Positions 9,930 to 13,577 of a stretch of DNA of 64,000 nt are shown one piece after another. This DNA comes from Sinorhizobium chiapasense. Lineage in GTDB: Bacteria; Pseudomonadota; Alphaproteobacteria; Rhizobiales; Rhizobiaceae. The stretch is taken from contig NZ_CP133148.1 in the NCBI RefSeq assembly GCF_036488675.1, positions 2,728,001 to 2,792,000 of the forward strand, in the 5' to 3' direction. The position numbers and the translations under genes were made by a program. Below the pieces are notes generated by a model, which worked only from the letters and a program-made list of their open reading frames with translations, was not told the origin of the DNA and did not search any database. The number at the start of each line of letters is the position of its first letter. Within the stretch, counting starts at the first letter, position 1.

Positions 9930-11696
<1,767 letters not shown>

Positions 11697-11909
11697 ATGT
11701 TTCTCGATGACGAAGTCGCCGCCGCGCGCACTCGGCGCAACGAGGCGCGCTGGGGCTTCTATCTGGCGCTCGCCGCACTTGCAGCCTGCATCGTGATGAT
11801 CCTCGGCCTGATGCTGCTTGCCATCGCGCTGCTCGCCGGCACGACCTTCGCCCTTTGGCGGCAGCAGATCGCCGCGTTCGTTGTCGCAAGGGTTCACCGG
11901 CATGGCTGA
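11697..11909 (+). CDS. small membrane protein, unknown function
   Basis: A 70-residue protein starting MFLDDEVAAARTRRNEARWG, then one long or two closely spaced hydrophobic helices (about residues 21-55), then a basic tail ARVHRHG. The start at 11697 has a G-run (TTGGGGG) 7 bases before it. Its stop overlaps the start of the next gene (ATGGCTGA), so the two are translationally coupled. I do not recognise a family. Because the next gene is sortase-like, this could be its membrane partner, but nothing in the sequence proves it. Confidence 0.65.
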   Translation: MFLDDEVAAARTRRNEARWGFYLALAALAACIVMILGLMLLAIALLAGTTFALWRQQIAAFVVARVHRHG

Positions 11910-12303
11910 CGACGATGACCTGTCCGACCGGCCTGCCGGATTCCTTGCCAGGCTATCGGCGATCGAAACGATCGTCGTGGCGATCATCGCCCTCATTGCC
12001 CTTGCCGGCCTGCTGCTGATCGGCAAGGGCTTCTACATGAAGGCCAGGGCCGAGGTCTCGCAGGCGCTGTTGCGAAAGAGTTTCGAGGAGCCGCTTCGCG
12101 GTGCTGCCAACGGCAGGCGGGCCGGCGAAGCCCGTTGGCACGCAAACGGCATCAACACGTCGGCCAGCGGGCGCCACCTTGCACTCGCCACCTGCTGGCC
12201 CTTCGACGCCGTCGAACAGGGGCCGATGCGCTACATCGTCAATGCCGAACTCGTCGGCGAGCAACGCGCGCTTCCGCTCACCACAGGCTCGATCTCCCGA
12301 TAA
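11902..12303 (+). CDS. sortase-like membrane protein lacking the central part (class GN type)
   Basis: A 133-residue protein. An acidic N-terminus is followed by a transmembrane helix (about residues 22-41), then GKGFYMKARAEVSQALLRKS, which resembles the membrane-proximal helix of class GN sortases, and a C-terminal HLALATCWPFDA...GPMRYIVNAEL, which matches their active-site strand pair with catalytic Cys (C98) and Arg (R110). The middle of a normal sortase (about 70-90 residues, including the catalytic His) is absent, in frame. Only H80 and H92 could replace it. It may be a degenerate relic or a reduced family with another role. The start at 11902 overlaps the preceding stop. Confidence 0.7.
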   Translation: MADDDDLSDRPAGFLARLSAIETIVVAIIALIALAGLLLIGKGFYMKARAEVSQALLRKSFEEPLRGAANGRRAGEARWHANGINTSASGRHLALATCWPFDAVEQGPMRYIVNAELVGEQRALPLTTGSISR

Positions 12304-12386: not shown

Positions 12387-13577
12387 ATGTGGCGCTCGCT
12401 CTCGAGGGCAGGTTTGACGAACATCCCGACCCTGTTGACGCGGTCCGCGGCCTCTCTCCTGTCCGGTTTTCTATGCCTCCTCGCCCCGCATGCAGCGACC
12501 GCACAAGACGCGCAGGAATTTTCAACCCAGGCAGGGACGGTCCTTGTCGAAACGCTCGCGACCGGACTCCGCCATCCCTGGGCCGTGGAGGTGATGCCGG
12601 ACGGCGGTCTCATCGTCACCGAGCGCCCGGGACGGTTGCGCATTCTGCGCGACGGCGAGCTGTCCGCCCCGATCGAAGGCGTGCCCGATGTGGCCGCTCG
12701 CGGACAGGGCGGGTTGCTCGATGTCGCCCTGGATCCGCAATTCGCCACCAACCGGGCGCTTTACCTGACCCATTCCGCCAGTGACGGCGACGGCTATGGC
12801 ACGGTGCTCGTTCGAGCCACTCTTTCCGACGACCAACGGCGCTTGACCGACGTGAGGGAGCTGTTCCGGATGAGCAAGTTCACCGGCGGGGGCCAGCACT
12901 TCGGTTCGCGCATCGCCATAGACAAGGACGGCAGCCTGTTCTTCGGTATTGGCGATCGTGGTCAACGTGACCGCGCCCAGGACCCGCGCGACCATGCCGG
13001 CGCCATTCTGCACATCAATCCCGACGGCAGCATTCCGGCGTCCAACCCATATCGCGGCGGCACCGAGGGTCGCGCCGAGATCTGGTCGAAAGGACACCGC
13101 AACCCGCAAGGCATCACCTTCGACCAGGGCGACGGCAAGCTCCTGACGGTCGAACACGGCGCGCGCGGCGGCGATGAAGTGAACAACCCGCAGCCGGGTA
13201 AGAACTACGGCTGGCCGGTGATCACCTACGGCAAGGACTATTCCGGCGCTGAGATCGGCGAAGGCACGGCCAAGGACGGCTTTGAACAGCCGCTCTATTA
13301 TTGGGATCCGTCGATCGCCCCGGGGGCGCTCGCCGTTTACCGCGGCAGCATGTTCCCGGAATGGGATGGAGACTTGCTGGTCGCCGCGCTGAAATACCAG
13401 CTGCTCGCTCGCCTGGAGCGAGACGAAAACGGCGCAATCACCTCCGAGGAACGGCTGTTCGACGGCGAGTTCGGCCGGATTCGGGACGTGGTCGTGGCAC
13501 CGGACGGCGCGCTGCTGATAGTGACCGACGAAGACAATGGCGCCATTCTCCGGGTCTCCAAGGCTCCGACGCAGTAA
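12387..13577 (+). CDS. PQQ-dependent sugar dehydrogenase (glucose/sorbosone dehydrogenase family), periplasmic
   Basis: A 396-residue protein with a long N-terminal signal region (hydrophobic SAASLLSGFLCLLAPHAATA, cleavage probably near residue 39), then a six-bladed beta-propeller of the GSDH/YliI family: LRHPWAVEVMPDGGLIVTER, LLDVALDPQFATNRALYLT, GGGQHFGSRIAIDKDGSLF and GHRNPQGITFDQ. The conserved His in GGGQHFG and the Arg/His of KGHRNPQG match the quinoprotein active site. It would oxidise sugar aldoses in the periplasm if PQQ is available. Substrate unknown. The cytoplasmic start could be internal (12387 has only a weak ribosome site). Confidence 0.88.
   Translation: MWRSLSRAGLTNIPTLLTRSAASLLSGFLCLLAPHAATAQDAQEFSTQAGTVLVETLATGLRHPWAVEVMPDGGLIVTERPGRLRILRDGELSAPIEGVPDVAARGQGGLLDVALDPQFATNRALYLTHSASDGDGYGTVLVRATLSDDQRRLTDVRELFRMSKFTGGGQHFGSRIAIDKDGSLFFGIGDRGQRDRAQDPRDHAGAILHINPDGSIPASNPYRGGTEGRAEIWSKGHRNPQGITFDQGDGKLLTVEHGARGGDEVNNPQPGKNYGWPVITYGKDYSGAEIGEGTAKDGFEQPLYYWDPSIAPGALAVYRGSMFPEWDGDLLVAALKYQLLARLERDENGAITSEERLFDGEFGRIRDVVVAPDGALLIVTDEDNGAILRVSKAPTQ

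Follow-up and report, generated by a model that had tools for sequence, protein, structure and literature searches.

Repeated in-frame reduction of a sortase-target operon in Sinorhizobium leaves a pair of small, probably maintained membrane proteins

What becomes of an enzyme that keeps its two ends and loses its center is the question raised by a small locus of Sinorhizobium chiapasense. In the 64,000-nucleotide stretch analyzed here (the window, numbered from its first letter), two small open reading frames lie on the plus strand between a minus-strand pyridoxal-phosphate aminotransferase gene (aatA, 9930..11132) and a plus-strand PQQ-dependent sugar dehydrogenase gene (pqq, 12387..13577), whose product names are taken from a S. 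meliloti record and which serve as flanking synteny markers. ORF1 (11697..11909) encodes 70 amino acids and ORF2 (11902..12303) encodes 133; their coordinates, and their overlap by the 8 bp ATGGCTGA (11902-11909), are as first described.

The original prediction that ORF2 retains the two ends of a class GN sortase, Cys98 and Arg110 included, is borne out. Against TIGR03784, the class GN (marine proteobacterial) sortase model, ORF2 gives two collinear pieces at model positions 2-35 and 137-174 of 174, so that the C-terminal motif can indeed be aligned to a sortase profile. The whole-protein score of 50.1 bits (E 2.3e-13) does not reach the curated cut-off of 158.25, and model positions 36-136, which include the catalytic histidine, are absent. 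Residues 85-118 match Pfam Sortase at E 6e-4 and 20 bits, below the cut-off of 26.6, and the match to the solved sortase-like chain 2ln7_A is confined to residues 93-120 (E 0.0072). In a relative, genome G005, the full-length sortase (222 amino acids) can be aligned with 2ln7_A from residue 82 to 209, a range that takes in the HRDT(H/V)F stretch absent from the window copy. Residues 1-72 and 73-133 of ORF2 correspond in alignment to the ends of this G005 protein. The N-terminal remainder (11902..12117) carries a hydrophobic segment at about residues 23-41 followed by GKGFYMKARAE, and the C-terminal remainder (12118..12300) carries the TCWPFDA...R strand pair with Cys98 (12193-12195) and Arg110 (12229-12231), both of which align to the relatives and to 2ln7_A. 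Compared with the orthologous genes of G005 and G002, ORF2 lacks 258 bp and a further 9 bp, both multiples of three, and the AHRDTHF of G005, aligned to HRDTVF of 2ln7_A, falls within the 258-bp deletion; the center with the catalytic histidine is missing in frame, as had been proposed. The two collinear profile pieces and orthology by synteny rule out a chance resemblance. The genome encodes no other, complete class GN sortase either: a TIGR03784 search of it gave no full-length match.

ORF2 had been described as coupled to a small membrane protein, with no vWA target gene beside it. The coupling stands, and the absence of a vWA target gene is literally true but misleading, because ORF1, far from being some unrelated membrane protein, is the two ends of the target gene itself. 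In DNA alignment, nucleotides 1-106 and 107-210 of ORF1 are the first 106 and last 104 nucleotides of a 779-codon target gene in G005 and G002, and this collinearity eliminates an unrelated small partner gene. The 779-codon gene at the place of ORF1 in G005 belongs to TIGR03788, the marine proteobacterial sortase target (852.6 bits), whereas ORF1 has no match to the TIGR03788 profile at E up to 1, and its matches to PHROGs and Pfam are weak and judged to be chance. What ORF1 lacks relative to G005 and G002 is 2127 bp, in frame, between two copies of the 8-bp repeat TCGGCCTG, which marks the junction at 11803..11810. That deletion contains both the vWA body and the C-terminal LPXTA signal, so that no LPQTA is present in ORF1, and it joins the two target ends into one hydrophobic stretch. 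Each of the three window deletions (2127, 258 and 9 bp) is divisible by three, and the start and stop of each gene persist, as does their overlap. As judged from its sequence, ORF2 cannot function as a sortase, because 89 codons including the catalytic histidine stretch have been lost and its target is without vWA body and LPQTA. ORF1 and ORF2 descend, by internal deletions in frame, from a target-sortase operon in which a TIGR03788 vWA target, with LPQTAT as its C-terminal signal, preceded a TIGR03784 class GN sortase.

The pair is not peculiar to the window. An overlapping pair occupies this locus in all 33 Sinorhizobium genomes examined, so the search of rhizobial genomes suggested with the original prediction did not find it absent elsewhere. 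Nine pairs are full length (target 778-780 amino acids, sortase 222) and 24 are reduced (ORF1 65-155 amino acids, ORF2 59-133), with frames open in every reduced genome; ORF1 and ORF2 share 8 bp in 18 genomes and 11 bp in 15. A TIGR03784 search at E up to 0.001 finds no match in 23 of the 24 reduced genomes, and the window copy yields only the two sub-cut-off pieces. The TCxPFD motif is found in ORF2 of all nine full pairs and of a single reduced pair, that of the window, and LPQTA in ORF1 of all nine full pairs and of one reduced pair, in G026. That LPQTA has gone from all reduced targets but one is consistent with a loss of sorting. It also bears on the idea that the stumps act in trans, as helpers or decoys of a full-length sortase encoded elsewhere in the genome. 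Only the G026 target, with its LPQTA, speaks for such sorting, which we consider very improbable, as the signal has otherwise disappeared and a TIGR03784 search, specific to class GN, gave no full-length match in any of the 24 reduced genomes, two of which are 70% and 85% complete.

A scan of named genomes returned 38 loci: 13 reduced and five full-length ones from Sinorhizobium and 20 from two other groups. S. meliloti 4H41, S. medicae, S. fredii, S. americanum, S. saheli, S. psoraleae, S. glycinis, S. shofinae and Ensifer aridi are among the reduced, and S. terangae is among the full-length Sinorhizobium loci. The other 20 belong to an Ensifer adhaerens group (ten) and to a group of Rhizobium type (ten) and have full-length sortases with a long ORF upstream. 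Three Sinorhizobium records (NZ_CP104131.1, NZ_CP104135.1 and NZ_CP104127.1) contain the small pair without a listed gene, the gene table used being incomplete, and small stumps of this type may often be unannotated.

Reduction has recurred. Provided that no copy was regained, at least three reductions are needed within the genus Sinorhizobium. In a tree built from rpoB, aatA and pqq, one clade (SH-aLRT 99.8) unites 21 reduced species, a second contains G026 and G013, and the window species groups with eight full-length species, although its exact place is weakly supported. An rpoB tree of the family places the window species as sister to the eight, with support of 98/99 for the full-length group and 100/100 once the window is included, and recovers the large reduced clade at 99.9/93, 19 of its 21 members having rpoB. 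The two trees thus differ on the window, which falls within the eight full-length species in one and beside them in the other, and also on G003. The G026/G013 pair and the window pair cannot derive one from the other, because each keeps pieces that the other has lost: G026 retains ORF1 pieces absent from the window, and the window retains C-terminal sortase residues absent from G026. Were frame irrelevant, three independent lineages would arrive at six outcomes that are all in frame with a probability, by our own arithmetic, of (1/3)^6, or ~0.001.

Beyond the genus, 56 of 394 sampled Rhizobiaceae genomes match the stump profile, eight of them Sinorhizobium, and 338 have no match; the pair is therefore not essential, and total loss or absence is common. 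Of the 48 matches outside Sinorhizobium, 30 loci were compared; for the other 18 an open frame of 229-467 amino acids was the sole ground for counting them as full, eight of these standing as full in the rpoB family tree. Reduced pairs account for all seven matches in genus g126, both in g10, the one in G155 and three of six in genus g15. Another two g15 genomes, G249 and G306, combine a reduced target with a long sortase, and one g15 genome is full. At the catalytic stretch, G389 and other full relatives have HRDTHF, whereas G249 has NSDSQF and G306 has HRRTQS. These two genomes show an intermediate state, and it looks as if the enzyme of G249 had died before being cut. G124 is oddly placed inside g15 in the rpoB family tree, and the order of events in this genus is unsure. 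The family tree sets the reduced pairs outside Sinorhizobium apart from those within it, with some weak deep nodes, and about four more reductions are counted there, or ~7 in the family as a whole; this figure likewise assumes no regain and is biased toward recurrence, since outside the genus the search detects only lineages that keep a stump, whereas inside it all 33 genomes are covered.

The class GN sortase P0030 of Pararhizobium capsulatum (135 amino acids) appears by eye to be frameshifted after about residue 91 and looks like a plain broken copy, unlike the in-frame stumps. P0032, P0034 and P0035, at 64-92 amino acids, look like more reduced sortase stumps, and two of them resemble the Rhizobium-type N-terminus.

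Are the stumps then pseudogene remnants in slow decay, with frames open by chance or because reading through them spares the downstream dehydrogenase gene a polar effect? They have lost the catalytic core, their tails are variable, most sampled genomes of the family show no stump, and the nearest relatives of the window species are full length, so its own reduction is young; all of this is as expected of decay. We estimated dN/dS (NG86, bootstrap 95% intervals) within reduced clades whose reduced state, judged from similar junctions, is shared by descent, so that differences among members postdate the reduction. In clade A (eight genomes) the ORF1 stump has a ratio of 0.13 (0.05-0.26) and the ORF2 stump 0.16 (0.09-0.29), with 0.47 and 0.36 for the respective tails. 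The corresponding values are 0.15 (0.05-0.32) and 0.20 (0.09-0.43), tails 0.34 and 0.49, in clade B (five genomes); 0.09 (0-0.31) and 0.33 (0.15-0.69), tails 0.57 and 0.88, in clade C (three genomes); and 0.15 (0.04-0.43) and 0.19 (0.05-0.68), tails 0.45 and 0.43, in clade D (two genomes). Clade E (two genomes) gives a ratio for ORF1 only, 0.17 (0-0.79) with a tail of 0.21, its ORF2 stump showing by simple count one replacement and no silent change. The intervals for the stumps of clades C, D and E are wide (upper bounds 0.31-0.79), and some tail intervals likewise lie below 1. Clades E and F (the latter G026/G013) consist of a single pair each; with 1-2 replacements and 0-2 silent changes counted in each stump, they are not distinguishable from neutral. 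Outside Sinorhizobium, six of the seven g126 genomes (G419 was excluded as too divergent) give 0.08 (0.03-0.16) for whole ORF2 and 0.16 (0.12-0.22) for whole ORF1.

Purifying selection thus acts on the stumps in several reduced clades: across clades A-D and g126 the ratios are 0.08-0.33, pS being 0.13-0.38. The same segments in full-length genomes give 0.17 and 0.18. The neighboring genes of clades A-D have lower ratios (aatA 0.04-0.07, pqq 0.10-0.18), which means weaker constraint on the stumps than on these enzymes. Synonymous divergence in the stumps is like that of the neighbors, so constraint at the DNA level is not the simple reason. Translation kept only to avoid polarity would leave the amino acids unconserved, and all 24 reduced Sinorhizobium genomes have kept their frames. 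Among four reduced pairs, DNA identity is 70-81% at the ORF1 starts and 74-86% in the 105 bp before ORF1, against 20-58% farther upstream; the ORF2 stump, at 56-67%, is less clear, not always standing plainly above the flanking DNA. We consequently regard slow decay as unlikely. On present evidence the pair is neither a functional sortase nor simple debris, and the membrane stumps are maintained. Of the two outcomes originally envisaged, a decayed sortase kept under translation or a reduced family with a new role, the second is favored, reached through decay of the enzymatic part.

Which residues are kept is another matter. A test for selection on Cys98 and Arg110 had been suggested; selection is seen in the stumps wherever it can be measured, but the strand pair with these two residues is not the lasting part, which in all 24 reduced ORF2 proteins is the single hydrophobic segment. 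In the window copy of ORF2, replacements that set it apart from six full relatives number none in residues 1-48, eight in 49-86 and none in 87-133 (Fisher p 2.5e-5, with bounds chosen after seeing the data); this branch may partly predate the deletion, and the cluster surrounds the junction. The conserved part of ORF1 depends on lineage, the N-terminal segment being kept in Sinorhizobium and the C-terminal part being most conserved in g126, which is odd for a single shared function. Kyte-Doolittle hydropathy, computed for all 24 reduced pairs of Sinorhizobium, shows one strong hydrophobic segment in every ORF2, followed by GKGFYMKAKAE-like residues, and one segment in ten ORF1 proteins, two in 13 and three in one. 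Both stumps would reside in the inner membrane, associated with each other and made together under envelope stress.

The link to envelope stress comes from the upstream region. Tandem half-sites of the form GCC-N8-GTC-N8-GCC, with an 11-bp period, lie 79-82 bp before ORF1 in all 33 Sinorhizobium genomes, full and reduced; in the window they occupy 11616..11640 on the plus strand, within a conserved block at ~11583-11650. The motif was read from the alignment of these same regions, and 200 shuffled sets gave at most 1/33. The ChvI consensus, as quoted second-hand in the part of PMC9731502 consulted, is N-GCC-N8-GCC, from which the middle GTC half-site departs, and we treat the motif as a candidate ChvI-type site in the window species. 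The full-length pairs carry the same motif, so membership of the regulon is probably older than the reduction.

The S. meliloti counterpart appears to be SMc01580/SMc01581, on account of gene order in a S. meliloti record and of a table row in PMC6637203 that pairs SMc01580, at 80%, with a 'marine proteobacterial sortase target protein' of E. adhaerens. SMc01581 would be ORF2, given its adjoining number and its control by ChvI. The genes SMc02262-02264, considered for this locus, were discarded, as other genes are found there (PMC7268258). The S. meliloti pair shares the locus order and reduced state of the window pair (65 and 93-94 amino acids) and differs in having neither Cys/Arg strand, in the one hydrophobic segment of its ORF1 (G006) and in its separate reduction. 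In the sections of the cited papers available to us, ChvI binding upstream of SMc01580 is reported from Chen et al. (PMC3687685), JspA and pH 6 both induce SMc01580/SMc01581 reporter fusions, the effect of pH 6 seeming curtailed without jspA or lppA (PMC10659215), and smc01581 is termed a direct target of the regulator and is induced by NCR247 (PMC12486126). The locus also appears in acid-response cluster A (PMC2651895), at +1.25 in a comparison with phosphatidylcholine-deficient cells (PMC8343143) and among the induced entries of a Clr list (PMC5498481). It is not named in the main text of the S. meliloti small-proteome paper (PMC10117765), and a search for protein-level or phenotype evidence for the pair found none. 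None of these papers, in the sections available to us, presents the pair as a gutted sortase system, and literature searches on class GN sortases, proteobacterial sortase targets, Sinorhizobium sortases and truncated sortases brought up no paper that visibly does so; those on class GN sortases and their targets revealed no established role.

We therefore propose, with a probability of roughly 70%, that the operon of a sortase and its target, gutted time and again and no longer catalytic, persists here as two small membrane proteins that serve in envelope stress without catalysis. While the body of enzyme and target was lost, in this lineage and repeatedly among relatives, the upstream region, the start sites and the overlap were carried over from the old operon; in S. 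meliloti the region is reported to belong to the ExoS-ChvI envelope-stress regulon, and both expression in the window species and the non-catalytic role are presumed by extension. The foremost candidate for a specific role, that of small membrane regulators or adaptors, is still less likely than not.

The boldest version, plausible but speculative, is direct action on ExoS or ExoR: the stumps would modulate ExoR-ExoS-ChvI by feedback in the manner of MgrB, a single-span, regulator-induced protein that acts on its kinase. Like MgrB-type sensor-kinase regulators, as described in the part of PMC8404706 consulted, the pair is small, has one hydrophobic segment (in every reduced ORF2) and is, in S. 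meliloti, the reported target of a two-component system. Its origin would be a different one. That most sampled members of the family manage without a stump, and that the motif is shared with full-length pairs, argue against such feedback, and we think it rather improbable. In a broader and still doubtful form, an enzyme-substrate operon would have become a small-membrane-protein signaling module about seven times in one family, its stumps acting together and without chemistry on ExoR-ExoS-ChvI or on envelope homeostasis, in a role already present in the same segments of the full-length proteins.

If the proposed reading is true, it would explain where SMc01580/SMc01581 comes from: this reporter operon of rhizobial symbiosis, for which the portions of the literature consulted offer no function, would be a gutted sortase-target system. 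Recurrent loss of the catalytic body together with selection on the stumps suggests that the ends of the sortase and its target have a function beyond transpeptidation, and the stumps may thus be a way into the role of class GN sortases and their targets.
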